From a virus, in the IMG/VR virus record IMGVR_UViG_3300027796_000310, positions 1 through 24,307 of that record: a stretch of DNA of 24,307 nucleotides; one strand, given 5' to 3'. The notes under the pieces are model-generated. The model was not told where the DNA came from and did no database searches. It saw nothing but the letters and a program-made list of their open reading frames with translations. Below, one piece after another: positions 3,339 to 24,307 of this stretch. How positions within the stretch are numbered: the stretch's first letter is position 1; each line of letters begins with the position of its first letter. Both the position numbers and the translations under genes were made by a program.

Positions 3339-4016
3339 TCAGGCCTTTGGCCACGTCACCGTCGCGACGATCGAATCGACTTCAGCGAGGGATGTCGCAA
3401 CGTCAATCGCGGCTTTTGCCGCCCGGTAGAGGGTGCGGCAGGCTGCGATATGCGATTTGCTTAACTCCCACAGCGCCAGGACTTCCGCGACTGATGCCCA
3501 GATCGTGCCGTCATTGGTGCCAATCAGATAGCCGGCGCGGCTCCAGCCGGCGGTGCCGTCGGAGATCTCGGTCTGATATTCGGCCGACCAAGTTGGCTCG
3601 GTCGTGCCGGAGATACCGGGGGTGGTGCAGAGATAATAGACTCCACCAGCCAGCAACACGGCGCTGCGGTCCTGTGTCGTGTCGGCCGCCCAGGCGGTGG
3701 CCCGGTTTTCGGCTATCAATGCAAGCTGATAGGCGCTATCGAGGTTAGCCTGATCGGTGCCGGTAAGGGTGTAGGTTCGTGTCTTGCCAGTAACAGAACA
3801 ACGAAACCCGCGCTCGATCGCCGTCGCGCAGGCGTTGGACAGAGTGGTAGCGGCATGAGTCTTTGCCTCGGCCATCTTGGCTAAAGCATATCCTGCGAAC
3901 ATTGTTTCCAGTTCGGATTCGGCCGGCTCGTGGTCGAAGAAAACCTCGTCGGGTGAGACGGTCATGGGATCGTCCCAAGCTCGGAAACTCAAGCCATTAT
4001 CTGAATAAGCGTACAT
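3339..4016 (-). CDS. Tail fibre assembly-like protein (DUF4376-like central region)
   Basis: A 225-residue protein directly after the fibre gene, with start and stop overlapping as TGATG. The N-terminus MYAYSDNGLSFRAWDDPMTV resembles tail fibre assembly or tip proteins. The segment around residues 55-75 (AEAKTHAATTLSNACATAIE) resembles DUF4376, common in fibre-associated phage proteins. A small beta-rich insertion (LAGGVYYLCTTPGISGTTEP) may be a carbohydrate-binding or structural module. The position matches P2 gene G. Likely a fibre chaperone or distal fibre component; the exact role is not shown. Confidence 0.6.
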   Translation of the reverse strand: MYAYSDNGLSFRAWDDPMTVSPDEVFFDHEPAESELETMFAGYALAKMAEAKTHAATTLSNACATAIERGFRCSVTGKTRTYTLTGTDQANLDSAYQLALIAENRATAWAADTTQDRSAVLLAGGVYYLCTTPGISGTTEPTWSAEYQTEISDGTAGWSRAGYLIGTNDGTIWASVAEVLALWELSKSHIAACRTLYRAAKAAIDVATSLAEVDSIVATVTWPKA

Positions 4017-7000
4017 CAGATACTATCCTCCCACCCCATACAGTAAAGAGAAGCCGTCCCCAATGTGCTTCCATAATAAATATTTCTACTTTCGAGCAGA
4101 AAATTAATAGATCCGACCGCAACAGCCGAACTGGTGTAAAAAGAAGAGAGCAAAGGAATATCTTCCGTATAGGCTGAAATTTCCTCCGGTTTAGCGTTAT
4201 CGTTCGGTCCTGCGTATGCGTAGCCACCAGCTTTTCCTGGGGCGAGAACCAGGGATATGGCGGTCGCTGTTGCCGGGACAGTTGCACTTACAGCAACGGC
4301 TTTCGGCCATGTCGCGCTTCCAGACGCGAGCTTGGGACACGAAGGCAGATTGATCCCACCCGAAACGTATTGGGCGCGGCGGCCGCATTGGCGCGTTTCT
4401 ATTAAGTTCCCACTGCCGTTGGTCCTTACTGCTCCAACGCGAATTTTGTGGGTATAGCCACTGGGTAGTGTCGGGTCTGTAGCGGAAAGTGACAGCATCG
4501 CCACCGTACCGGCAAATCCATCAATAACCCAAACATGATACCAAGTGTTTCCAGAGACTGAACCTACGTCAATTCCTCCCGCCCCACTTACATTGGCTGC
4601 TATCGTTTCTGATACAGATATCTTCGTCTTTGGTTTCGCACTGTTATCCGCCAAAACCAGCTCATCAGCCGAGATGCTGATGCCTGTAGACGATGTGACC
4701 TGCACTTTGAGACCACGGTGATAGCCGTGAGCAGAGTTAACCATTGCGGCTTGAACGAAAGCCGTTGAGGCAAGCTGGCTGGTGCTGGTCCCAACAGCGG
4801 CCGTCGGGGCAGTCGGAATCCCCGTCAGGACTGGGCTGGACAAGGGCGCTTTCAGGGCCAGGGCATTGGTCATCGTCGTGGCGAAATTGGGATTGTCGCC
4901 CAGAGCCGCCGCCAGTTCGTTGAGGGTGTTGATAGTCCCCGGCGCAGCATCCACCATCGCCGCGATGGCCGCTTGGACAAAAGCGGTGGTCGCGAGTTGG
5001 GTGGTGCTGGTCCCGGCGGGAGCAGTTGGTGCTGCCGGATTCCCCGTCAAAACCGGACTATCCAAGGGCGCTTTGAGCGCGAGGGCAGCCGCCATTGTCG
5101 CGGCGAAATTTGGATCGTCACCAATCGCGGCCGCGAGTTCTTTGAGGGTGTTGAGAGCCCCTGGCGCAGCGTTTACCAACGCCGCGATGGCCGCTTGGAC
5201 AAAAGCGGTGGTCGCGAGTTGGGTGGTGCTGGTCCCGACGGCAGCGGTTGGTGCTGCCGGATTCCCCGTCAAAACCGGACTATCCAAGGGCGCTTTGAGC
5301 GCGAGGGCATCTGCCATTGTCGCGGCGAAATTTGGATCGTCACCAATCGCGGCCGCGAGTTCTTTGAGGTTGTTGAGCATGGCCGGCGCGCCGGCGATCA
5401 GGGCGAGGATCGTCTCATGCACAAAAGCCGTGGAGGCGATTTGGGTCGTATTGGTGCCGACTGTGGCAGTCGGTGCCCTCGGCGTTCCAGCAAAAACCGG
5501 ACTGGACAAGGGCGCTTTCAAGGCCAAGGCATTGATCATCGTCGTGGCGAAATTAGGATCGTCGCCGATGGATGCCGCCAAACTGTCCAAAGTATTGAGC
5601 GTAGCCGGTGCGCCAGCGATCAGAGCGAGGATCGCTGCTTGGACAAAAGCAGTAGAAGCGAGCTGATTACTATTGGTGCCAACAGCGGCCGTCGGGGCGG
5701 TCGGCGTTCCGGTCAAGGCCGGGCTGGCCAGGGGGGCTTTCAGGGCCAGGGCATTGGTCATCGTCGTGGCGAAATTGGGATTATCCCCCAGAGCGGCAGC
5801 CAGTTCGTTAAGGGTGTTGAGAGCCCCTGGCGCAGCATCCACCATCGCCGCGATGGCTGCTTGGACAAAAGCGGTGGTCGCGAGTTGGGTGGTGCTGGTC
5901 CCGGCGGGAGCAGTTGGTGCTGCCGGATTCCCCGTCAAAACCGGACTATCCAAGGGCGCTTTGAGCGCGAGGGCAGCCGCCATTGTCGCGGCGAAATTCG
6001 GGTCATTTCCCAGGGCGGCTGCGAGTTCTTTGAGGGTGTTGAGGGTCTCCGGCGCACCATCGATCAGGGCGAGGATCGTCTCATGCACAAAAGCCGTGGA
6101 GGCGATTTGGGTCGTATTGGTGCCGACTGTGGCAGTCGGCGCCCTCGGCGTTCCAGTAAAAACCGGGCTGATCAACGGCGCCTTTAATTCGAGTGCGCCG
6201 GCCATTGCTTCGGCAAAATTCGTAGCAAAATTGCGATCGTTACCAATCGCGGCTGCGAGTTCTTTGAGGGTGTTGAGTTTCTCCGGCGCACCATCGATCA
6301 GGGCGAGGATCGTCTCATGCACAAAAGCCGTGGAGGCAAGCTGGGTGTTATTGGTGCCGACCGTGGCAGTCGGCGCCCTCGGCGTTCCAGTAAAAACCGG
6401 GCTGTCCAAGGGCGCTTTGAGCGTGAGGGCAGTGGAGAAATTCGTTGCGAAATTGGGATCGTTGCCAATGGCGGCCGCGAGTTCTTTGAGGGTGCTGAGA
6501 GTACCTGGCGCAGTACTGATCAAGGCGTTGATCGTCGCTTGCACGAAAGCTGTGGAAGCGATTTGGGTCGTATTGGTGCCGACTGTGGCAGTCGGTGCGG
6601 TTGGTTTTCCGGTCAGCGTCGGGCTGACCAACGGCGCTTTAAGCGCAAGGGTAGCAGCCATTGTCGCGGCGAAATTCGGATCATTTCCCAGGGCGGAAGA
6701 AAGCTCGCGCAGCGTATCCAGAGCCCCGGGTGCGGCATTAACCAATGCCGTCAGTGCCGCTTGAACAAAAGCGGTGGAAGCAATCTGAGTGGTGTTGGTA
6801 CCGACGGCGGCCGTCGGGGCGGTCGGAATCCCCGTCAGGACCGGACTGGCCAGTGGAGCTTTGGGAGCAATCGCGGCCGCGATCAGGGCGACAATCGCCA
6901 GATCAAGTTGATTGGTCAGCGACAAGTCAAGCGCGCGTCCTGACCGTTTAATCACCGCCTCAATTTGAGCCTTCAGCCAAACACTACGCTCAGTCAACGA

Positions 7001-7135
7001 CCGCAACGGCCAGTTGTCAATACCATCTGGACCACCCAAAACAGGGTCATCAGTCTGGAGTTCATAGATTCCACTCGGCCAGGAGGGATTATCGTCCAAA
7101 AAAGGGCCGGTAAGGCGAGACCTTCCTGTTGACAT
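4016..7135 (-). CDS. H: Long tail fibre protein with about 9.5 tandem 74-residue repeats (P2 H-like)
   Basis: A 1039-residue fibre. Residues 1-90 form an N-terminal baseplate-attachment region (IDNWPLRSLTERSVWLKAQI). Residues 91 to about 800 hold nine full and one partial repeat of roughly 74 residues, each with LKAPLxSPxxTGxPxAPTA, TQxAxTAFV and TLKELAAAIGDDPNFA. The first part resembles the phage tail fibre repeats of T4/P2-type fibres. Residues 800-1039 (from SAHGYHRGLKVQVTSSTG) are non-repetitive and probably form the receptor-binding tip. The start overlaps the stop of I (TAATG). Several repeats are nearly identical in DNA, so copy number may vary by recombination. It should trimerise and determine host adsorption. 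Confidence 0.9.
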   Translation of the reverse strand: MSTGRSRLTGPFLDDNPSWPSGIYELQTDDPVLGGPDGIDNWPLRSLTERSVWLKAQIEAVIKRSGRALDLSLTNQLDLAIVALIAAAIAPKAPLASPVLTGIPTAPTAAVGTNTTQIASTAFVQAALTALVNAAPGALDTLRELSSALGNDPNFAATMAATLALKAPLVSPTLTGKPTAPTATVGTNTTQIASTAFVQATINALISTAPGTLSTLKELAAAIGNDPNFATNFSTALTLKAPLDSPVFTGTPRAPTATVGTNNTQLASTAFVHETILALIDGAPEKLNTLKELAAAIGNDRNFATNFAEAMAGALELKAPLISPVFTGTPRAPTATVGTNTTQIASTAFVHETILALIDGAPETLNTLKELAAALGNDPNFAATMAAALALKAPLDSPVLTGNPAAPTAPAGTSTTQLATTAFVQAAIAAMVDAAPGALNTLNELAAALGDNPNFATTMTNALALKAPLASPALTGTPTAPTAAVGTNSNQLASTAFVQAAILALIAGAPATLNTLDSLAASIGDDPNFATTMINALALKAPLSSPVFAGTPRAPTATVGTNTTQIASTAFVHETILALIAGAPAMLNNLKELAAAIGDDPNFAATMADALALKAPLDSPVLTGNPAAPTAAVGTSTTQLATTAFVQAAIAALVNAAPGALNTLKELAAAIGDDPNFAATMAAALALKAPLDSPVLTGNPAAPTAPAGTSTTQLATTAFVQAAIAAMVDAAPGTINTLNELAAALGDNPNFATTMTNALALKAPLSSPVLTGIPTAPTAAVGTSTSQLASTAFVQAAMVNSAHGYHRGLKVQVTSSTGISISADELVLADNSAKPKTKISVSETIAANVSGAGGIDVGSVSGNTWYHVWVIDGFAGTVAMLSLSATDPTLPSGYTHKIRVGAVRTNGSGNLIETRQCGRRAQYVSGGINLPSCPKLASGSATWPKAVAVSATVPATATAISLVLAPGKAGGYAYAGPNDNAKPEEISAYTEDIPLLSSFYTSSAVAVGSINFLLESRNIYYGSTLGTASLYCMGWEDSI
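4736..6865 (-). repeat. Tandem array of about 222-bp units inside the fibre gene
   Basis: Nine complete units and a tenth partial unit, mostly 74 codons (the third has four extra codons). Three unit types can be told apart: units 3, 4 and 7 share VFxGTPRAPTATVGT and STAFVHETILALI; units 5, 8 and 9 share VLTGNPAAPTA and TAFVQAAIAA; units 6 and 10 are closer to unit 1. The order C-D-E (4-6) is followed by C-D-D-E (7-10), suggesting duplication of a block. Units 5 and 9 are almost identical in DNA (around 5840-6000 against 4950-5110). Confidence 0.9.
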
Positions 7136-7701
7136 TACGCAATCCCGTAATTGTAAGTCCCGTCGCGCCGAATCACGCCGTTATGAATTGCGGCACACTC
7201 GACGTAATCGAGAGAGAGGAGGTGACTGCGCTTCGGCGCTATTGCGGCCAGAATCTGGCGAACCTGATCGGCTTGGCGGTTGGTGATCGGTCGTTCCAAC
7301 ACGACGCGGTAGCAGGCCCATCCCGCCGCCCACCCGTGGAAAAATCGGCCATTACGGCTGATGCTGCCGTCATGACGGCGGCGGTGCAGGCCTTCCAGGA
7401 TGATCGGCGTTTGGTTAAGCACCGCTGCGATTACGGTTTTGATGGACCAAACCGTCCCTTTGAAGCGGTGGGTATCAAAGCTGGCGGCGATCACTGCCCG
7501 CTTTGTTGCTTCGGACCAGTCTTCATCCCAGAAATCGACCGAAAGCTCCCATGCCAGCCAGGGTAGGAGATCCGCCGGGCACCGCCAGGGATCCTTCAAA
7601 ATCGTCAGCGGCACCGGAATCGCTGAAATCTCGCCATTGACTGTCGTCACGGCCCGCAGCAACGCCGTTGCATTCGGGGGGAGCAGAGTCGGATCAGCCA
7701 T
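7135..7701 (-). CDS. I: Tail protein gpI (baseplate)
   Basis: A 188-residue protein of the P2 gpI family (P2 gpI is 176 residues). The family signature is clear in PWRCPADLLPWLAWELSVDF at residues 37-56, followed by HRFKGTVWSIKTVIAAV. It is a baseplate component at the base of the fibres. It overlaps J by 8 bases and the fibre gene by one base, so translation is probably coupled across V-W-J-I-H. Confidence 0.93.
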   Translation of the reverse strand: MADPTLLPPNATALLRAVTTVNGEISAIPVPLTILKDPWRCPADLLPWLAWELSVDFWDEDWSEATKRAVIAASFDTHRFKGTVWSIKTVIAAVLNQTPIILEGLHRRRHDGSISRNGRFFHGWAAGWACYRVVLERPITNRQADQVRQILAAIAPKRSHLLSLDYVECAAIHNGVIRRDGTYNYGIA

Positions 7702-10405: not shown

Positions 10406-11662
10406 TTACAGCTTTTTCTCGGCGTTCAGGAACATCGGGAAGAAGCTGCGCTGATTTTTGGCCTTGATGACGTCGTTGACACTGATTGTATTTGCTTTCC
10501 GCCGTTCGCCACCTGCTGGCGTAATCACCTTAAGGTCCGCGCTTTCGATGATTGCCGCATGGACATCATCGGTGTGTGCCGGGGTGACGTTGTAGATGCT
10601 CTCGTAGAATTCCATTACGGAGATGGCGTCGCCTGCTTCCATCACGAGACGAGGAATGTCTCCCAAAAGCTGCTCCTTCGCGGAAGCGCGGCCGTTGTCG
10701 TCGAACAGGTAGAGCATTCCCTCGTCATGCCGCGGATCATAGGACAACATATTGAGACCAGACCGACCGAAATGCGCCTGATGGCTCGCGTTGTCGTGAA
10801 GAATGTTATTGTAAACCTGTCGCGCACGATAAGCGTTAGCAAAATGGATCAGCCAGTACCGCCAACCGCCGGGATTGTTGATCGAGAAGGGGCTGACATA
10901 GGGTGCGCAAAGACGGAATGCGTCGAAGACGATCTTCTCCGCCGTGCCAAGCCAATCCTTCTGGCTCACAATAAGCCCATCAAGCGCCTGGACGTCGTCG
11001 CGGGGGAGTCCTAGGTGCTCAAGTTGAGCACTCAGCCGCTCCGGCTGATCTTTCTGAAGAAACGCCAAAAGTGAACTGATGACGAATGTATAAAAAATCT
11101 CTGCAGCAGGATATGAGTGCATGATATCGAGTATAGTCTCTCGATCAACATGGCTATGGCCGCACTGATCTAGGTTGAAGAGAACGCTCCGATACCGTCC
11201 TTGCTCTAAAAACAACTTAACATTTGGGTAGACACTCTCAAATAAGTCGTTCAGATATTCAACGCGCAGATGGAGCTTTGGACAAGTCTCTGCGATATCC
11301 AATTGCATCGGTACGACATGTGTTTTTAGAAGCTCGATCGCATCGGGACTCGCGTCATTGAAAATCAGCAGACATTCGACCTCGATCGAACCGATCCCCT
11401 GAACCGCACGCTGGGTGTTTACCGCCTCGACGGCCCGCTTCAGTTCCTCAATGAAAATCAGCGGCGAACCCGATGTACCGCACTTATATCGGCCACCTCC
11501 AGCGAATCCATCGACAATTGCCAGTCGAAAGCGCTCTTGCTGGGGCAGTCTACAACGGACAGTCAGATAGTCGAATACATATTCTCGAAGAATTTTGTGT
11601 TTTCGCCGAGAATGCTCATCAATATTAGCACCATCCGCCCATTCATATCGTTTTTGCACCAT
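10406..11662 (-). CDS. tcmP: Three-Cys-motif partner protein TcmP
   Basis: A 418-residue protein. The N-terminal region KRYEWADGANIDEHSRRKHK is characteristic of TcmP. IVDGFAGGGRY (residues 49-59) resembles motif I of Rossmann methyltransferases, and FNLDQCGHSHV (162-172) sits where a motif IV-like strand would be. The C-terminal 80 residues are winged-helix-like (ISVMEFYESIYNVTPAHTDD). TcmP genes are known to co-occur with three-Cys-motif (Gp37/Gp68, DUF5131) genes, and here one lies 27 bases upstream. The molecular role is unknown; nucleic-acid modification or defence is possible but is inference. Confidence 0.85.
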   Translation of the reverse strand: MVQKRYEWADGANIDEHSRRKHKILREYVFDYLTVRCRLPQQERFRLAIVDGFAGGGRYKCGTSGSPLIFIEELKRAVEAVNTQRAVQGIGSIEVECLLIFNDASPDAIELLKTHVVPMQLDIAETCPKLHLRVEYLNDLFESVYPNVKLFLEQGRYRSVLFNLDQCGHSHVDRETILDIMHSYPAAEIFYTFVISSLLAFLQKDQPERLSAQLEHLGLPRDDVQALDGLIVSQKDWLGTAEKIVFDAFRLCAPYVSPFSINNPGGWRYWLIHFANAYRARQVYNNILHDNASHQAHFGRSGLNMLSYDPRHDEGMLYLFDDNGRASAKEQLLGDIPRLVMEAGDAISVMEFYESIYNVTPAHTDDVHAAIIESADLKVITPAGGERRKANTISVNDVIKAKNQRSFFPMFLNAEKKL

Positions 11663-11689
11663 TTCGAAACACCATCTTTTGTCGAAATT

Positions 11690-12472
11690 TTATGCCAATA
11701 CCTGCTTCGAGGCTGGCATTTCATCCCATGTTTTTCCTCTATACTCGCGGCCGTTGGCTTTTTTCGAGCGTTTCTTGTTGTCGCTGCCCCAGGTACCCCA
11801 TTGCTTGAAGAAAAAGGCCGTACCGGCTGACAGACATTGAGCATAGATTTCATCGATCCATTCCTCGCGGATAAGACGCGCGGACTTGCCGCTTTCCCCG
11901 CCAACGATCGCCCAATCGATGTCCCGAAGATCGATGGTACCAACGGCTCCTATAAGCGGCTCGAAGGAGATGAAGCGGATCGCGGCTGGTGCCTCCCGCA
12001 GATGGCCGATTCGGTCGACTACATTCGCATCCTCAATGCTAGTGCCGAGCCAGACATTGGGTAGAACTTCTCCGATCTTGTCGGCGACCAGTTCCGCCAT
12101 GCGTTCTGGCCGTTTGGTAAGAATCTGGTAGTTGTGCCAAGGTGTCTCGCGCATCACTTGCCAGACATCGAGAATAAAATCTTTGCTGACCTTCTCATGA
12201 AACAGGTCGCTCATCGAGTTTACGAAAATCTTGCGGGGTTTGCGCCAGCGATGCGGAATCAGCAGTGCTTCGCGATCCTCACGCACCACGCCGCTCCACG
12301 CGGTACCTACCCCCGTCTTGCGGGTTAGCCCCGCATATTTATCGACTCCCATCGCCTCCAGACGTTTGGCCATTTCCAACGCATAGCAATGGGCGCAGCC
12401 GGCGGTAACGATCGAACATCCGGCGACGGGATTCCAAGTGGCATCCGTCCACTCGATTTGGGTTTCAGCCAT
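11690..12472 (-). CDS. Three-Cys-motif protein, phage Gp37/Gp68 family (DUF5131)
   Basis: The product is 260 residues from ATG 12472, preceded by GGAGGG. An upstream in-frame start would add 21 residues, but the family normally begins near MAETQIEWTDATWNPVAGC. Cys19, Cys26 and Cys29 (C-x6-C-x2-C, GCSIVTAGCAHCYA) resemble an iron-sulfur cluster site of radical-SAM-like enzymes. Other family blocks are RKIFVNSMSDLFHEKV, QILTKRPERM, VWLGTSIED, FISFEPLIG and WAIVGGESG. It forms an operon with tcmP. A possible -10 (TACAAT, 12522-12517) lies 45 bases upstream without a clear -35. The pair sits right after gene S, a P2-family cargo position. Confidence 0.87.
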   Translation of the reverse strand: MAETQIEWTDATWNPVAGCSIVTAGCAHCYALEMAKRLEAMGVDKYAGLTRKTGVGTAWSGVVREDREALLIPHRWRKPRKIFVNSMSDLFHEKVSKDFILDVWQVMRETPWHNYQILTKRPERMAELVADKIGEVLPNVWLGTSIEDANVVDRIGHLREAPAAIRFISFEPLIGAVGTIDLRDIDWAIVGGESGKSARLIREEWIDEIYAQCLSAGTAFFFKQWGTWGSDNKKRSKKANGREYRGKTWDEMPASKQVLA

Positions 12473-12528
12473 CTTGCCCTCCCAGGTATCCTTCCATTCG
12501 TCGCGACGTTGACCCCATTGTATCGCGT

Positions 12529-12987
12529 TTACCACTCAATCGCCGCCAATATCCGCGCCCGGACGGCGGCGACATCTTCGGCGGGTAGACCGAGCAGGAG
12601 CCGGGCGGCATATTGGTGCTGAGGGCCGCCCGGCTCTACTGCGTCCACCTCACCGAAATGGTGGACCGAGGCCAGTCGCCGGTTGCGGCCGGAATAGCCC
12701 AGCTCGAGTCCGGCCGGACTGGTTTTGAGGGCAAGCCGGCGGGTCTCGCGCAAGCCCTGCAACATTTTGGCGGTGGAGCGGATCCGGCCCCAGCGGTCCC
12801 GTCTCCGAGGCTCCCACGGGATGCCATCGGGGGCGATCTGGGCACCGATCCGGCGCTGATTGCGGCGCCGCAAATCGCGGCCGATCTCCAGCAGCAGGCG
12901 GCGCCGGGCCTCGGGATCGAGCGCGGCCAGAGCTTGCATCAACCAGCGTTCCAGCCCGGCCAACCCGGCATCGGGCGCTCTGGTCAT
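12529..12987 (-). CDS. S: Tail completion protein gpS
   Basis: A 152-residue protein (P2 gpS is 150). The start at 12987 overlaps the stop of R as ATGA; the open frame runs farther upstream, but that part is out-of-frame R sequence. Conserved segments are RRLLLEIGRDLRRRNQRRIG, DGIPWEPRR and the final HFGEVDAVEP and QYAARLLLGLPAEDVAAVR. gpS is needed for tail completion and joining. It ends the O-to-S operon; the next minus-strand gene is cargo. Confidence 0.92.
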   Translation of the reverse strand: MTRAPDAGLAGLERWLMQALAALDPEARRRLLLEIGRDLRRRNQRRIGAQIAPDGIPWEPRRRDRWGRIRSTAKMLQGLRETRRLALKTSPAGLELGYSGRNRRLASVHHFGEVDAVEPGGPQHQYAARLLLGLPAEDVAAVRARILAAIEW

Positions 12988-17957: not shown

Positions 17958-19727
17958 ATGACCCCCGCCCCTCCTCCCGCCCCTGAACCTCGTCTTGCCG
18001 CCCGCGCCCTCTATTGGCAGGGGCATAGCCCGGCCGACATCGCCCGGCAGCTCGGTCTGCCCTATGGCACGATCGACGCCTGGAAGCGGCGCGACGAATG
18101 GGACAAGGCTCCGGTGGTGGCCCGGGTCGAGGCCAGCGTCGAGGCGCGGCTGATGCAGATCATCGCCAAGGAGCCGAAGAGCGCGGGCGATCTGGCAGAA
18201 ATCGACCAGCTCGGCAAGCTGATGGAGCGCACCGCGCGGATTCAACAGTTTGGGCGGTCTGGACGCGAAACCGACCTCAACCCCAATCTCGAAAACCGGG
18301 CCAAGGGGCGCAAGCGCAAGGCCGAAGAGAAGAACACCCTGAGCGAAGAGCAGGTCGAAACCCTGGTCGCCGCGTTCGATCAGGGGCTGTTCGGCTATCA
18401 GAAGGCATGGCACGCGGCGAAGCGGTACCGGATCCGCAACCTGCTGAAGTCACGCCAGATCGGCGCGACATGGTATTTCGCCCGCGAAGCCCTGATCGAT
18501 GCGATCGAGACCGGCGACAACCAGATTTTCCTGTCGGCCTCCAAAGCCCAGGCCCACGTCTTCCGCGAATACATCGTCCAGTTCGTCAAGGACGTCACCG
18601 GGGTGATCCTCAAGGGCGACCCGATCACCCTGTGGAATGGCGCCACCCTCTATTTCCTCGGCACCAATTCCAAGACGGCGCAGTCCTATCATGGCCACGT
18701 CTATCTCGACGAATATGCCTGGATCGCCAAGTTCCTCGAATTCCGCAAGGTCGCCAGCGCGATGGCGACCCATAAGAAATGGCGGATTACCTACTTTTCG
18801 ACCCCCTCGACCATCGGTCACGAGGCTCATGCCTTCTGGTCGGGCGAAAGCTTCAACAAGGGCAGGGCCAAGGAAGACCGGGTCGAGATCGACGTCAGCC
18901 ACGCCGCACTGAAGGCCGGAATGCTCGGCCCGGACGGGCAATGGCGCCAGATCGTCACCATTGACGATGCCGCCGCCAGCGGCTGCGATCTGTTCGACAT
19001 CGCGGCGTTGCGCCGCGAGTACAATGAGCAGGATTTCGCCAATCTGTTCATGGCGGTGTGGGTTGACGACACCCAGAGCTTCTTCGGCTTCGACGAGCTG
19101 CGCCGCTGCATGGTCGATAGCTGGGAGGTGTGGGGCGATGTCAACGCCCTGGCGGCACGGCCATTCGGCGACCGCCCGGTGTGGATCGGCTATGACCCGG
19201 CCCTGTCCCAGGATAACGCCTCGATCGTGGTGGTAGCCCCGCCGACGGTCGAAGGCGGAACCTTCCGCATCCTCGAAAAAGTCAATGTCAACGGGGTCGA
19301 TTTCGAGGCTCAGGCCAACGTGATTCGCGGCCTGTGCGCCCGTTATGCCGTCGCCCATATCGGCATCGATACCAGCACCATCGGCCAGGGGGTGTTCGAG
19401 ATGGTCCGCCGCTTCTTCCCCGCGGTGCGCGCCATCACCTATTCGGTCGGGGTCAAAACCCGCCTTGTCCTCAAGGCCAAGCAACTGATCGCCAAGCGCC
19501 GGCTCGAATTCGACGCGGGCTGGTCCGATGTCGCGATGGCCTTTCTCGCCATCCGCCGCACCGCCACCCCGACCGGGCGTCAGGCCACCTTCTCCGCCGG
19601 CCGCTCCAAGGAAACCGGCCATGCCGACGTCGCGTGGGCGATCATGCACGCGCTTGACCGGCTCGATTACACCGATTTCGACCAGACCGCCGGGGGGACC
19701 GGTGGTGGTTTCATGGAGATCTTCTGA
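17958..19727 (+). CDS. P: Terminase large (ATPase) subunit gpP
   Basis: A 589-residue protein (P2 gpP is 590). The start at 17958 begins MTPAPPPAPEPRLAARALYW; the open frame upstream covers O antisense and is not coding. Residues 14-46 form a helix-turn-helix (GHSPADIARQLGLPYGTIDAW). The ATPase has a Walker A-like KSRQIGAT at 164-171 and Walker B VYLDEY at 248-253. The RNase H-like nuclease part has acidic residues D413 (GYDPALSQDNAS), D471 (IGIDTST) and D557 (GHADVAWA). It powers DNA packaging. Q follows after 2 bases. Confidence 0.96.
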   Translation: MTPAPPPAPEPRLAARALYWQGHSPADIARQLGLPYGTIDAWKRRDEWDKAPVVARVEASVEARLMQIIAKEPKSAGDLAEIDQLGKLMERTARIQQFGRSGRETDLNPNLENRAKGRKRKAEEKNTLSEEQVETLVAAFDQGLFGYQKAWHAAKRYRIRNLLKSRQIGATWYFAREALIDAIETGDNQIFLSASKAQAHVFREYIVQFVKDVTGVILKGDPITLWNGATLYFLGTNSKTAQSYHGHVYLDEYAWIAKFLEFRKVASAMATHKKWRITYFSTPSTIGHEAHAFWSGESFNKGRAKEDRVEIDVSHAALKAGMLGPDGQWRQIVTIDDAAASGCDLFDIAALRREYNEQDFANLFMAVWVDDTQSFFGFDELRRCMVDSWEVWGDVNALAARPFGDRPVWIGYDPALSQDNASIVVVAPPTVEGGTFRILEKVNVNGVDFEAQANVIRGLCARYAVAHIGIDTSTIGQGVFEMVRRFFPAVRAITYSVGVKTRLVLKAKQLIAKRRLEFDAGWSDVAMAFLAIRRTATPTGRQATFSAGRSKETGHADVAWAIMHALDRLDYTDFDQTAGGTGGGFMEIF

Positions 19728-19729
19728 TC

Positions 19730-20764
19730 ATGCCCAGACTTCGCCCGCGCCAGAAGCTGCACGCGCTCGGCCCCAGCCGCTCCGCTGCCCCGGTTCCGGC
19801 TCCAGCGCCGGAGGTGTTCACCTTCGGCGACCCGCTGCCGGTGCTCGACCGTCACGAGGTGATGGGGCTGTTCCGTTCCAATTTCAACGGGCGCTGGTAC
19901 GAACCGCCGGTCTCGTTCGACGGCTTGGCCAAAGCCCTGACCGCCAGCCCGCACCACCAAAGCGCCCTGGCCTACAAAGTCAATCTGCTGGCCGGGGCCT
20001 TTGTGCCGCACCCGCTGCTGTCGCGGCACGATTTCAAGCGTCTGGCGCTCGATTTCCTGGTGTTCGGCAACGCCTTTGTCGAAGTGCGCCGGTCGAGATT
20101 GGGCAGCCTGATGCGTTTGGCCCCGCTGCTGGCCCGCTGGACCCGGCCGACCCCGGCCAGGGGGGCGGTGCTGCTGACCGACGGCACCGAGATCGAATTC
20201 GAACCCGGCGCGGTGCTGCATCTGCTGGAACCGGACATCAGCCAGGAGATTTACGGCCTGCCCTGCTATCTCGGCGCGTTGCAATCAGCCTTGCTCGGCG
20301 AGGCGGCAACCCTGTTCCGCCGCAAATATTACGTCAATGGCAGCCACGCCGGCTTCATCCTTTATCTGACCGATCCGGCCGGCAACCAGCAGGACATCGA
20401 CGAGCTGCGGGCGGCGATGCGCGCATCCAAGGGACCGGGCAATTTCCGCAACCTGTTCATGTACATGCCCAACGGCAAGAAGGACGGGCTTCAGGTGATC
20501 CCGATCAGCGAGGTGACCGCCAAGGATGAATTCTGGAACATCAAGAACGTGACGCGAGACGACGTGCTGGCCGCGCACCGGGTGCCGCCGCAATTGCTGG
20601 GAATCGTTCCCTCGAATAATGGCGGGTTCGGCTCGGTGGCGCAGGCGGCCGACGTGTTCTTCCGCCATGAAATCGAGCCGCTGCAAACCACCTTCCTCGC
20701 CCTCAACCAGGGTTGCGGCGAGGAGGTGGTCCGCTTTGCGCCTTATCAGGCGATGGCGGTCTGA
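19730..20764 (+). CDS. Q: Portal protein gpQ
   Basis: A 344-residue protein, the same length as P2 gpQ. Conserved portal segments are FGDPLPVLDRHEVMGLFRSN, RWYEPPVSFDGLAKAL, LKFxx-type core replaced by FKRLALDFLVFGNAFVEVRR, and MYMPNGKKDGLQVIPISEV. The ring sits at the packaging vertex. It is co-transcribed with P. The stop codon abuts the stop of hicB on the other strand, leaving no terminator space. Confidence 0.96.
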   Translation: MPRLRPRQKLHALGPSRSAAPVPAPAPEVFTFGDPLPVLDRHEVMGLFRSNFNGRWYEPPVSFDGLAKALTASPHHQSALAYKVNLLAGAFVPHPLLSRHDFKRLALDFLVFGNAFVEVRRSRLGSLMRLAPLLARWTRPTPARGAVLLTDGTEIEFEPGAVLHLLEPDISQEIYGLPCYLGALQSALLGEAATLFRRKYYVNGSHAGFILYLTDPAGNQQDIDELRAAMRASKGPGNFRNLFMYMPNGKKDGLQVIPISEVTAKDEFWNIKNVTRDDVLAAHRVPPQLLGIVPSNNGGFGSVAQAADVFFRHEIEPLQTTFLALNQGCGEEVVRFAPYQAMAV

Positions 20765-21157
20765 TCAGCCAAGCTTCTCCCGGGCCGCGACCGCCAGAAA
20801 ACCAGACCGGCTCATCCCTTGTGTTCGCGCGGCGGCATCAACTCGGCTCAACAGCCCTTCGTCCATCGTGGCGTTGAACCGGATTGCCTTACCGGGAAGA
20901 TCCACCCGCACCAGAACCCGGCAAACCTCGTCAACCTCGGAATTAGGCTCGATCCGGTCCAGTGGGGTCGGATCGGGCAACGGATCCCCGTCCTCGATGA
21001 TGCCGCGCAGATGGAGGCTCAACGCCTCCTCAGCCGAACGAGCGGCCATCTCTATGGTATCCCCCGCGCTGACGCAGCCGGGAAGGTCGGGGAAAAACAC
21101 CCCGAAGCCCGGCTCGTCGCCTCGTTCGATGATTGCCGGGTAATAACGGATCGCCAT
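20765..21157 (-). CDS. hicB: HicB antitoxin
   Basis: A 130-residue protein. The N-terminal HicB-like domain includes EPGFGVFFPDLPGCVSAGDT, a degraded RNase H-like fold. The C-terminal region (IRFNATMDEGLLSRVDAAAR, GMSRSGFLAVAAREKLG) is a ribbon-helix-helix type DNA-binding domain. It should neutralise HicA and repress the hicA promoter. It starts 10 bases after hicA. Such pairs stabilise mobile elements or act in phage defence. Confidence 0.92.
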   Translation of the reverse strand: MAIRYYPAIIERGDEPGFGVFFPDLPGCVSAGDTIEMAARSAEEALSLHLRGIIEDGDPLPDPTPLDRIEPNSEVDEVCRVLVRVDLPGKAIRFNATMDEGLLSRVDAAARTQGMSRSGFLAVAAREKLG

Positions 21158-21167
21158 CGTCTGCTCC

Positions 21168-21368
21168 TTACCTGATTTTGAGGCCGGCCTGACGCTCGAT
21201 GCTCTTGAGGGTACCGATCTTCATGTCCTTCTCGGGGTGCTTGACCGTGATCCGGCCCGGCTTGGTCGGGTGCTTGAACTGATGGTGCGACCCCTCGACG
21301 TTAACCAGGCGCCACCCATCCGCCTCAAGGGCTTTGATCGCGTCCCGACTGCTGATGCTCTTGACCAT
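21168..21368 (-). CDS. hicA: HicA mRNA interferase toxin
   Basis: A 66-residue double-stranded RNA-binding-like protein from ATG 21368 (MVKSISSRDAIKALEADGWR). The catalytic histidine lies in VEGSHHQF, followed by PTKPGRITVKHPEKDMKIGT, all family hallmarks. The open frame extends to 21401, but that start lies within the palindromic promoter, so the internal ATG is preferred. It would cleave mRNA when free of HicB. Confidence 0.92.
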   Translation of the reverse strand: MVKSISSRDAIKALEADGWRLVNVEGSHHQFKHPTKPGRITVKHPEKDMKIGTLKSIERQAGLKIR

Positions 21369-21371
21369 TTC

Positions 21372-21420
21372 GCCCCCGCTTAATGTGTATTTTATACACA
21401 TAAGGCGGGGGCTACGTCAA
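21372..21420 (-). promoter_or_regulatory. hicAB promoter with large palindromic operator
   Basis: Minus strand -35 TTGACG (21420-21415), 18 bases, -10 TATAAA (21396-21391). ATGTGTAT, 3 bases, ATACACAT (21383-21401) is a perfect dyad over the -10. It is nested in a 41-bp imperfect palindrome (21372-21412, arms 17 of 19 matching, with outer GCCCCCGC and GCGGGGGC). A lone half-site TGTGTAT is at 21440-21446. HicB autorepression is the likely function. Confidence 0.65.
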
Positions 21421-21445: not shown

Positions 21446-22162
21446 TCAACAGACCGGGATAGCCTCGACCCTGGCCCGAATCGCCGCAACATGAACCGGC
21501 GAAATGTCGCTGACGATCGCCCGCCGGCCGGTGCGGAGCGCTGCCTCGGCCAGACTGCCCCCGCCCGCGAACACATCGACCACGGTGCCATCTTCCGGGG
21601 TGGTGGCGCGGATGATCGTCTCCAGCAGATCAACCGGCTTGGCGGTGGGATGATTCCGCTTGGCTGGTGCCACCCGCTTGGCTGGGATCACATTGCCGAC
21701 CGTGACATCATAACGCGGGGTGCTGGTCCCCTTGGCAAAATGCAGCACCAGTTCGTGGCGAGCCCGGAAGCTGCTGCTGCCCAGTCCGGTGGACAGCTTG
21801 TCCCACACCACTAGGTTACGCCAGCGCAGGCCGGAACTCTCCAGCGCCGGGGCCAACGCCGCCACCATCCGCCAGTCGCAGAACACGCACAGGCTGCCCT
21901 TATCGGTGAGAATGCGGTGAGCCTCGATCGCCACCTGGCGCAGCAGCCATACCAGCCCCGTCGTCGTCATCGCATCGCCCTGGAACCAATCAGCCTTGGT
22001 CATTCCTGGTGCGGCGGTGCGAGCGGCCTCGGTGAAACCTCCGGCGCAATAAGGCGGATCGAGGATCACCGCATTGGCGGATTCATCGCCCAGATCGGCT
22101 AACGCCTCCAGACAATCCGCCTGGGCGAGACGCACGCGGCCAAGATCGGTCCAATTCGGCAT
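21446..22162 (-). CDS. DNA adenine/cytosine-N4 methyltransferase (beta class), com-linked
   Basis: A 238-residue protein from ATG 22162 (MPNWTDLGRVRLAQADCLEA); a TTG 18 bases upstream is also in frame. DPPY (residues 35-38, VILDPPYCAGG) precedes HPTAKPVDLLETII and the SAM-binding VVDVFAGGGSLAEAALRTGR, the motif order of beta-class N6-adenine or N4-cytosine enzymes. No restriction gene is adjacent, so it is probably an orphan phage methyltransferase protecting or marking phage DNA. The start lies inside com, overlapping it by 80 bases, as mom overlaps com in Mu, although this is not a Mom protein. AAGGGA lies 9 bases before the ATG. Confidence 0.87.
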   Translation of the reverse strand: MPNWTDLGRVRLAQADCLEALADLGDESANAVILDPPYCAGGFTEAARTAAPGMTKADWFQGDAMTTTGLVWLLRQVAIEAHRILTDKGSLCVFCDWRMVAALAPALESSGLRWRNLVVWDKLSTGLGSSSFRARHELVLHFAKGTSTPRYDVTVGNVIPAKRVAPAKRNHPTAKPVDLLETIIRATTPEDGTVVDVFAGGGSLAEAALRTGRRAIVSDISPVHVAAIRARVEAIPVC

Positions 22163-22331
22163 GTTGAGCGTTCCCTTCAAGGTCAGGACGCTCGGGGCGT
22201 TCGGGAGAGGGGCACGCGGCCCTCTGATGGCAATTCAAGGCCCCGCAACGGGGGCATTTGATCTCGATCACCCGGCAATCAGCCGCCCGGGCCAGCAACC
22301 GCCCGCAAGCGGCGCACCGTATGGACTCCAT
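22083..22331 (-). CDS. com: Com-family zinc-finger translational regulator
   Basis: An 82-residue protein. MESIRCAACGRLLARAADCR with a following IEIKCPRCGALN gives two CxxC knuckles and closely resembles phage Mu Com (which begins MKSIRCKNCNKLL). Mu Com binds mom mRNA and opens a hairpin hiding its start. Here com overlaps the methyltransferase start and a hairpin covers that gene's ribosome binding site, so the same control is likely. The C-terminal 40 residues are Arg/Pro-rich and may be constrained mainly by the overlap. AGGTGA lies shortly upstream of the ATG. Confidence 0.85.
   Translation of the reverse strand: MESIRCAACGRLLARAADCRVIEIKCPRCGALNCHQRAACPSPERPERPDLEGNAQHAELDRSWPRASRPGGLSGGVSRSGR
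22166..22193 (-). promoter_or_regulatory. Hairpin over the methyltransferase ribosome binding site
   Basis: On the mRNA (minus strand), GAGCGT and ACGCTC form a 6-bp stem; inside it CCT can pair with GGG of AAGGGA, the ribosome binding site 9 bases before ATG 22162, with one bulged A. The hairpin ends 3 bases before the start codon. This is the arrangement expected for Com-dependent translational activation. Confidence 0.5.
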
Positions 22332-22559: not shown

Positions 22560-22578
22560 AGACGTCCCCCGCCGCGCC
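22560..22578 (-). other. cos: Candidate cos site (P2-like cohesive end)
   Basis: The minus strand reads GGCGCGGCGGGGGACGTCT. P2 and 186 cohesive ends, as I recall them, follow GGCGNGGCGGGGAAAGCA; the first 12 bases fit, and CTGCG follows at nearly the same distance as in P2. The orientation is right: reading on along this strand leads to Q, P and O. The position between integrase and Q is also where cos is expected. The local sequence is GC-rich, so chance similarity must be tested. Confidence 0.45.
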
Positions 22579-22762
22579 TCCGGCTTAAATGGGGCTTGAT
22601 TTCTGCACTGCGGAGAGGGCGGGAAACGGCCCCAGGCCTGCCGATCCAGATCGCTGGCGGGAGTTCTCAATCTCTGCGGCTTTCTGCGATCTTCTGCGCG
22701 TTCGGCTTGAGGCGGCTTTCCCACGTCCCGAAACCGTCAGCCCCCTCTTTCCAGGTTGGCCA

Positions 22763-23056
22763 TCGGAAAAAGGTAATCTCGGTTTTGTCACCCCAAAAAT
22801 CAGCTTAATGCTTTGAAAATAAAAGAATAAAAAGATTACCCGGCGCGGGTAATGCCGGGTAATTGGCCTGTGCGTTTGGGGTTAAGTCGTTGATTTTCAG
22901 CAATCCCACAGCCCAAGGCGATGACCCTCAACAACGGTAATCGGATAACCTATCCATAACCGATTTTGTTACCAACGAAGCTTCGTGATTTTAACAGGTA
23001 AATCATAGGTTTAATCAATTTTTTAATATCTTCTTACCTAGATTACCTTTTTCCGA
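22763..23056. repeat. Perfect 17-bp inverted repeat bracketing the AT-rich gap
   Basis: TCGGAAAAAGGTAATCT at 22763-22779 and its exact reverse complement at 23040-23056. The arms lie about 260 bases apart and the GGTAATC core recurs between them. They resemble paired binding sites rather than a hairpin because of the distance. Confidence 0.8.
22836..22862. repeat. Nested TTACCCG/CGGGTAA repeats
   Basis: TTACCCGGC, nine bases, GCCGGGTAA is a perfect inverted repeat. The nine-base centre itself contains CGGGTAA, so three copies of the word occur in 27 bp (one inverted, two direct, the direct copies 10 bp apart). The 10-bp spacing suggests binding on one face of the helix. Confidence 0.7.
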
Positions 23057-23131: not shown

Positions 23132-24307
23132 CTACCCACTTGAGGTCTGACAGAACGCAGCCCAGGCCTCCATCAAGTCTCGCCGTTTATCGAACAGGTC
23201 GCCGCGCCGATAAGCCGCCTCGACCTTGTCGGCGACGGCGTGAGCGAGAGCGGCTTCAGCCACCTCGCTGGGAAAAGCGGTCGTTTCGGATGTCCAATCG
23301 CGGAAAGTTGATCGGAAGCCGTGGGCGGTGAGGTCTGGCCAGTCCATCCGTCGCAGCAGCATCAGCAGCGCCATCGACGACAGCGGCCGTTTTGGCCGGG
23401 TGCCAGGAAAGACCCATTCGCTTTCCCGTCCCCGTAACGCGGCCATCTCCGTCAGCACGGCGACGGCCTGGGGGGCGAGCGGAACGCGATGGTCCCGTCC
23501 GGCCTTCATGCGCTCGGCCGGGATCGTCCAGACCTTGTTTTTGAGATCGATTTCAGGCCAAACCGCTTCAAGGGTTTCCGACGTGCGGCTGGCGGTGAGG
23601 ATCAGGAATTCAAGAGCCCGGGCGGCGACAGCATTCCGTTGCCGCAACTCGGCCATGAACCGGGCGATCTCGGCATAGGGCAAGGCAGCGTGGTGTTCGA
23701 CGATGGCAACCTTCGAGCGGGCCGGCAGCAGCTTGTCGAGGTGCCCACGCCAGCGCGCCGGGTTTTCGCCCTGGCGGAAACCGCGCACCGTTGCCCAATC
23801 CAGAATCGTCTCGATCCGGCCGCGCAGACGTGAGGCGGTTTCCGGCTTTTCCTTCCAGATCGGCTCCAGCACCTTCATCACCAGGGGCAAGTCGATGGCT
23901 GCAACGGGGAGGGCACCGAAGACCGGTTCGGCATAGGTGGCCAGCGTGTTTTCCCATTGCTGGCGATGCTTCGGGTTGCGCCAGCCTTCCCGGTGCGCGG
24001 TGATATAGGCGGCAGCACATTGAGAGAACGTCATTCCATGCGCCGTTTTTGCCCGCTCGCTGGCCATCTCGACCCGCCGCGCCTCCAGTGGATCGACGCC
24101 GTTGACCAGCAGCCTGCGAACATCGGCCGCTTTATTCCGGGCCTCGGCCAAGGTCAGAGCCGCCAGCGCGCCAAGCCCCATCTGATGGGCTTTGCCGTGA
24201 CGCATATAGCGGACCAGCCAAGACTTCCCCCCGGTGGGGCCGACCTGCAAATACAGCCCGCCACCATCCGCGTATCGTCCGGGCTTCGTCATCTTCTTGA
24301 CCGCCAT
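23132..24307 (-). CDS. int: P4-type tyrosine integrase (start probably outside the window)
   Basis: 391 residues are visible up to the window edge. The DUF4102-type N-terminal domain is shown by GRYADGGGLYLQV and SWLVRYMRHGKAHQMGLG. The catalytic domain has the first Arg in TASRTSETLEAVWPEIDL, HGFR in LTAHGFRSTFRDWTSE, and the nucleophile Tyr in VEAAYRRGDLF. Family members usually have about 10-20 residues before the visible MAVKKM, so the real start is probably past 24307. In P4-type islands the attachment site is next to the int 5' end, which would put it right of the window and this phage to its left. Confidence 0.9.
   Translation of the reverse strand: MAVKKMTKPGRYADGGGLYLQVGPTGGKSWLVRYMRHGKAHQMGLGALAALTLAEARNKAADVRRLLVNGVDPLEARRVEMASERAKTAHGMTFSQCAAAYITAHREGWRNPKHRQQWENTLATYAEPVFGALPVAAIDLPLVMKVLEPIWKEKPETASRLRGRIETILDWATVRGFRQGENPARWRGHLDKLLPARSKVAIVEHHAALPYAEIARFMAELRQRNAVAARALEFLILTASRTSETLEAVWPEIDLKNKVWTIPAERMKAGRDHRVPLAPQAVAVLTEMAALRGRESEWVFPGTRPKRPLSSMALLMLLRRMDWPDLTAHGFRSTFRDWTSETTAFPSEVAEAALAHAVADKVEAAYRRGDLFDKRRDLMEAWAAFCQTSSG

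Follow-up and report, generated by a model that had tools for sequence, protein, structure and literature searches.

A predicted replication origin with mirror-image iteron halves beside cos in P2-family phages that encode a primase-helicase

In this work, we describe a 294-bp non-coding, AT-rich element, at positions 22763-23056 of a virus contig, which is very probably the replication origin of a P2-family phage that does not use the gpA nickase. The short word repeated in this element follows the phage primase, not the terminase or the portal protein. The element appears not to have been described before, and database records leave this conserved block beside cos unannotated. No description was found in the literature searched; the 1993 phiCTX paper was outside the scope of that search, and an earlier notice of the repeats is possible. 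The Smp131 paper treats cos and att in detail, in passages without mention of the element (PMC3931495).

Results

The stretch of DNA analysed, hereafter the window, is the 24,307-nucleotide (24.3-kb) contig IMGVR_UViG_3300027796_000310, which carries P2-family genes for the portal, large terminase, scaffold, capsid and tail proteins. The large terminase gene ends at 19727, before that of the portal protein (19730-20764). Genes for HicAB, an N6/N4 methylase and a Mu-like Com protein separate the latter from the element, and a tyrosine integrase gene lies beyond it. The record stops at the start of int, and the early region, in which the primase gene is expected, thus falls outside the window; no primase gene is present in the window itself.

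HicA and HicB (20765-21401) form a toxin-antitoxin pair, present as cargo between the portal gene and cos, a known hotspot of the P2 family, and HicAB of phi3 are likewise found near the genome end. At 21446-22331, the gene of the Mu-like Com zinc-ribbon protein overlaps that of the N6/N4 DNA methylase, an arrangement reminiscent of com-mom of Mu, and the whole com-methylase-HicA-HicB block is also present in locus L039, with 81-94% identity. Within the tail gene cluster, a DUF5131/GP88-like protein is encoded beside a GMT-wHTH protein (10406-12535), a pair that resembles a cargo insertion and is possibly three-Tmp-like. A tail-fibre-like protein of 1039 residues (4016-7135) contains many repeats of about 60 residues (LKAPLxSPxxTGxPxAPTAxVGTNTTQIASTAFV...).

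The preliminary description of this DNA had pointed to a 17-bp perfect inverted repeat in an AT-rich island at 22763-23056. Those coordinates are correct, and the exact 17-nt arm, TCGGAAAAAGGTAATCT, can even be extended to 21 nt, with 20 of 21 positions (95%) complementary between the two arms. The G+C content of the island is 39.8%, versus 60-67% around it. The features of the element and its context are as follows.

22763-23056, no strand: predicted replication origin, a pseudo-palindromic iteron array (element conserved in 73 loci; word tracks primase)
22763-22783, plus strand: left outer arm, TCGGAAAAAGGTAATCTCGGT (arm comparison)
23036-23056, minus strand: right outer arm, inverted copy (arm comparison)
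22772-22777, plus strand: iteron GGTAAT of the outer pair, whose partner at +9 is degenerate
22835-22840, minus strand: iteron GGTAAT, inverted single
22848-22853, plus strand: iteron GGTAAT, left trio
22858-22863, plus strand: iteron GGTAAT, left trio, whose third member is degenerate in the window copy
22883-22895, minus strand: central match to the IHF consensus, WATCAANNNNTTR (enriched across all elements)
22922-22926, minus strand: degenerate iteron GGTCA
22936-22941, plus strand: iteron GGTAAT, right single
22946-22950, minus strand: degenerate iteron GGTTA, right trio
22957-22961, minus strand: degenerate iteron GGTTA, right trio
22969-22973, minus strand: iteron GGTAA, right trio
23013-23025, plus strand: match to the IHF consensus in the right spacer
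23034-23038, minus strand: iteron GGTAA, right outer pair
23042-23047, minus strand: iteron GGTAAT, right outer pair
22560-22579, no strand: putative cos cleavage region, AGACGTCCCCCGCCGCGCCT, by homology to the mapped cosR of phiCTX, AGTCGTCCCCCCGCCACGCCT (context, outside the origin)
23132-24307, minus strand: tyrosine integrase (Arm-DNA-bind_3 / Phage_int_M / Phage_integrase) (context)
19730-20764, plus strand: P2-family portal protein (Q) (context)

All six GGTAAT words listed at the outset are present (22772, 22848, 22858 and 22936 on the plus strand, 22835 and 23042 on the minus strand), but that list is an undercount, as the array comprises about 12 words once one-base variants at consensus positions (TGACC, TAACC, TTACC) are included. 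That words and arms are unlikely to arise by chance was borne out. The island contains six GGTAAT and seven GGTAAY; in 5000 dinucleotide shuffles of the island the means were 0.27 and 0.42, respectively, and neither count was ever reached. Its longest inverted repeat, of 17 nt, exceeds the maximum of 14 nt obtained when the surrounding 1.3 kb was shuffled 200 times. A count of GGTAATC, as had been proposed, gave nine copies in the whole window against 1.36 expected, four of the nine being inside the element.

The exact 17-mer was found in 12 IMG/VR contigs. In 11 of them the inverted second arm follows at 275-278 bp, and in the last, L009, the sequence ends 138 bases past the arm. A two-arm pattern search of 84,980 species genomes yielded 60 further loci in Pseudomonas, Halomonas and relatives, Ralstonia, Pandoraea, Dyella, Edwardsiella, Telmatospirillum and others. 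Phages and prophages of the P2 family that bear the element thus have hosts among alpha-, beta- and gammaproteobacteria. In the 73 aligned elements (285-295 bp), the positions and orientations of the words are kept while the spacers have diverged; as only the words are conserved, blastn of the window region against phages and plasmids returned no match, and relatives were recovered by the pattern search and by profiles instead. A search of Rfam gave chance matches only. The consensus of 47 non-redundant elements begins with an outer pair, followed by an inverted single and a trio; beyond the centre, these groups recur as a mirror image. The dyad is confirmed by the element profile, which scores on either strand. 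Matches to the IHF consensus number 31 over all elements, versus 1.4 expected. Most Pseudomonas genomes tested have a single copy of the element, and nearly all other genomes have one for each P2-like prophage; the idea that the arms are remnants of a dispersed repeat family is not consistent with these copy numbers. Each phage genome examined has one strong GGTAAY cluster, at the element, and the early promoters lack a further one.

In the portal-associated loci checked, the 3' end of the portal gene faces cos and the element. In the phiCTX record (D13409), the annotated features are cos, attP, int and terminators. The element has no annotation there, but a homologue is present at 194-474, between the marked cosR and attP core, giving the order cosR, element, attP, int. 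The order in the window is cos, element, int, with int in the opposite reading direction compared with phiCTX. By this comparison, the window cos probably lies at 22560-22579, some 180 bp from the element. The distance between element and cos, measured from profile edges, is 134-176 bp in most loci but 0.6-2 kb in L006, L014, L053, L059 and L079, and that between element and att ranges from 0.16 to 1.3 kb; neither geometry is therefore fixed. Likewise, the location downstream of int noted initially characterises only some members, among them the window copy, which is 75 bp from the stop codon of int. Between cos and the element, at 22601-22700 and in equivalent regions, we observed repeated TGCA/TGCG words, e.g. 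TTTATGCAC... and, in Halomonas, CATGCGGAATCTTGCG; similar TGCA words are found at the right end of P2. These repeats might be sites for the small terminase subunit.

All six annotated full-length phages that bear the element (Dobby, OQ658368, D14A, Sirocco, Smp131 and Halomonas 4908) encode a Toprim protein of about 900 residues, PHROG 1139. Of 31 genomes with the element, 24 have the primase gene, whole or partial, at a distance of 5-38 kb within one contig, and the relatives thus encode a candidate initiator. The protein combines a Toprim region and a GEAGAGKT P-loop with the conserved cysteines of a Zn finger. Its structural model has a mean pLDDT of 70, with a poorly modelled helicase part, and its fold matches include the SCCmec Cch helicase (5dgk), the RNAP domain of DnaG and the SaPIbov1 replication initiator (8tch); a sequence search against the PDB gave weak DnaG matches only. 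Modelled alone, the C-terminal domain (pLDDT 86) has the order alpha-beta-alpha-alpha-beta-beta of winged helices. The structural matches listed for it by VIA are mostly winged-helix DNA binders, with weak scores (Z up to 5.3), the origin-binding domain of P4 alpha being absent from them, and Foldseek returned no significant match for this domain.

Two primase genes deserve mention. In the closest relative of the window with a prophage-length record, from Telmatospirillum (L007, record G074 4776-7317; G030 C12 226956-229494), the primase is encoded as two adjacent reading frames, for the primase (1-479) and for the helicase and C-terminal part (515-896), which reflects either a frameshift or a gene that is split as in SaPI pri/rep. 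In Smp131 (NC_023588; L120 25406-27958), the gene is frameshifted near the C-terminus, giving 850 residues versus about 896-900 in relatives. The match limit at 1-754, which had suggested a swapped C-terminal domain, is explained by that frameshift in the record.

P2, HP1 and phiO18P encode the gpA nickase in place of PHROG 1139. The element profile had no match in HP1, and P2 and HP1 were at background, without an array, in the word-density scan. In phiO18P the highest word density of the genome, seven CCTGCA at about 30.5 kb (L175 30550-30850), is inside an annotated tail-fibre gene; we discarded it as an origin array, similar GC-rich repeats being present in other loci. The scan is imperfectly specific, with phiO18P and several primase-bearing loci reaching 7-9 copies of GC-rich hexamers (CAGCAG or CTGGCC in loci other than phiO18P), and density by itself is therefore insufficient to call an array.

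The pairing of element and primase has exceptions. Five genomes (G003, G011, G031, G008, G002) have the element and no nearby primase, and these elements are either remnants or orphan sites. In the Pseudoalteromonas prophage G014 the element is present, the assembly has no match to PHROG 1139, and a gpA gene is located on another contig. Among 12 more distant primase records, no array was found in the stretch searched for four (G059, G060, G065, G067), nor did the word scan detect one in the ZY1 genome.

Arrays of similar build, but composed of unrelated words, are present in phages with more distant PHROG-1139 proteins: TGTCAG in UFJF_PfPro, GGAACA in phi3, where the array is directly 3' of the primase gene, TGTGAT in ESSI2_ev239, which has the outer TCGGAAAAA in common with the window element, AGTTAC in 2F_1 and TGGAAG in PaBSM. 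The likeness is in the grouping of the words, not base for base, with some words shifted or additional in phi3 and UFJF_PfPro. Among elements of xanthomonad-type records, GCAAY reaches peaks of 11-12 per 280 bp, versus about 1.3 in the remainder of those stretches. Within each element, the words are homogenised at their last base (chi2 of 244 versus 47 expected), as for a single co-evolving binding protein. Beside the origin array of G052 are 12 CCGGTT (AACCGG) repeats (L299 2520-2660); we considered them as a second array, but they look like a coding repeat.

The word co-varies with the primase, also between phages with near-identical terminase and portal proteins. Prophage W4I3 and UFJF_PfPro are highly similar in their large terminases (92% identity), small terminases (94%), portal proteins (98%) and HTH repressors (97%), yet their words are GGTAAT and TGTCAG, respectively; the C-terminal half of the W4I3 primase is 61% identical to that of Dobby, which has the same word, versus 48% to that of UFJF_PfPro. 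In G032 and G036, the large terminases are 100% and the portal proteins 99% identical, yet the words are GGTAAY and GCAAY. Finally, in a nearest-neighbour comparison (not a formal co-phylogeny) of 22 xanthomonad-type records found by their primase, the nearest neighbour has the same word in 21 of 22 cases for the primase, 17 for the portal protein and 16 for the large terminase; the sole exception for the primase is G044, with GGTAAY and a nearest primase associated with GCAAY. As the word differs on near-identical terminase and portal backgrounds, it is very unlikely to be controlled by the terminase or by packaging. Our reasons for setting aside the integrase as determinant of the word are limited to position and to W4I3, where the 54 kb searched had no match to the integrase of either Dobby or UFJF_PfPro.

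Discussion

Multiple short repeats with a fixed geometry in non-coding AT-rich DNA are what is found in iteron origins. We propose that the phage-encoded PHROG-1139 protein, with its Zn finger, Toprim primase, P-loop helicase and winged-helix-like C-terminal domain, would act as the initiator. The C-terminal domain would bind the short iterons, and IHF might bend the three AT-rich spacers, such that the two mirror-image halves would assemble into one symmetric complex. The helicase would then melt the AT-rich DNA, after which the primase activity would start synthesis.

An attP-arm or Cox array and a terminase site both fit phiCTX, but the module-swap pairs and phi3 speak against them. If the element were a packaging enhancer, to which the small terminase subunit and IHF would bind as to a cosB-like array, its usual proximity to cos and its IHF-like sites, reminiscent of lambda cosB, would be accounted for. 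Indeed, the customary place beside cos is not explained by origin function and counts against the origin. Nevertheless, the position beside cos is not fixed (0.13-2 kb, five loci being at 0.6-2 kb), the phi3 array is away from the genome ends, and P2 packages its DNA without the element. The words differ despite 98-100% identity of large terminase or portal and 94% of small terminase, and the separate TGCA/TGCG repeats would make a likelier terminase signal. We thus regard a role in packaging as quite improbable, if the least improbable of the alternatives.

An integrase/excisionase array of the Cox type, governing excision, was among the three options initially offered for this region; the origin is the one that our data support. 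Its frequent location near int or attP speaks for such an array, as does the HP1 Cox site, which resembles GGTAA. Direct repeats one helical turn apart are also typical of recombination directionality factors, or RDFs (PMC7498355). This reading is hard to reconcile with elements that are intact in integrated prophages, at variable distances from att and int and not fixed at the attP core, with the lack of a second word cluster at early promoters in the phage genomes examined, or with W4I3, which has the word of Dobby without a match to either known integrase; moreover, the words track the primase. We consider it highly unlikely, and to the same extent a partition, multimer-resolution or other nucleoprotein site that travels with the primase module. 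A symmetric complex with IHF-like sites and a conserved size would suit the latter, but no ParAB or resolvase is regularly linked to the element in the loci and phages examined, and co-evolution with the primase is most simply that of an initiator-origin pair. The terminal inverted repeats, the lack of coding capacity and the similar length everywhere might evoke a 294-bp MITE-like mobile element. This is hardly credible, since there is one copy per prophage instead of dispersal, the internal words are conserved in position and co-evolve, and no target duplication is evident in the window.

Beyond the window, we consider it likely, with somewhat less confidence than for the origin itself, that a large share of the P2 family, namely the PHROG-1139 lineage with over 560 IMG/VR contigs, does not rely on the gpA rolling circle and starts its replication at one symmetric iteron origin close to cos. 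This origin would be akin to P4-type ori and crr fused head-to-head, and its word would diversify along with the primase-helicase, yielding many mutually incompatible replicons in one phage family. P2 is the textbook rolling-circle phage, and many of its relatives thus appear to hold a different replication module. If so, the origin of each such phage could be predicted from its sequence, and the conserved unannotated block beside cos would be accounted for. The matched pairs of initiator and word would form a natural series to study how a winged-helix-like domain shifts its DNA specificity, and they suggest rules of incompatibility and parasitism for coinfecting phages and satellites.

As for known systems, the attP-cos region of phiCTX has the homologous element between cosR and attP. 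P2, HP1 and phiO18P belong to the same phage family and have the same morphogenesis genes. Unlike the element, the gpA origin is a rolling-circle nick site within gene A (the P2 ori is at 29892), and the scans revealed no comparable origin-type array in these phages. SaPIs have an iteron origin with a matching initiator. The predicted fold of the helicase matches Cch of SCCmec (5dgk) and the SaPIbov1 initiator (8tch), but primase and initiator are separate in SaPIs, and the hosts and sequences are unrelated.

In organisation, the element resembles P4 ori and crr, which are non-coding, with short iterons in groups, and recognised by the alpha protein of their own replicon, a Toprim primase-helicase fusion (PMC7145576). 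P4 ori likewise has a trio, an inverted single and a pair, and crr, of 300 bp, has pairs 9 bp apart. Unlike ori and crr, which are two sites more than 4 kb apart, the element gathers two mirror-image halves in one 294-bp site, with a single array per phage, and both the word and its polarity differ (TGTTCACC). In hhalign, P4 alpha and PHROG 1139 align over the Toprim region only (E 2e-4, 107 columns) and not over their full lengths. In view of the two distant sites of P4 and this Toprim-only alignment, we do not class the element as a P4 origin proper but as an iteron origin with a primase-helicase initiator.
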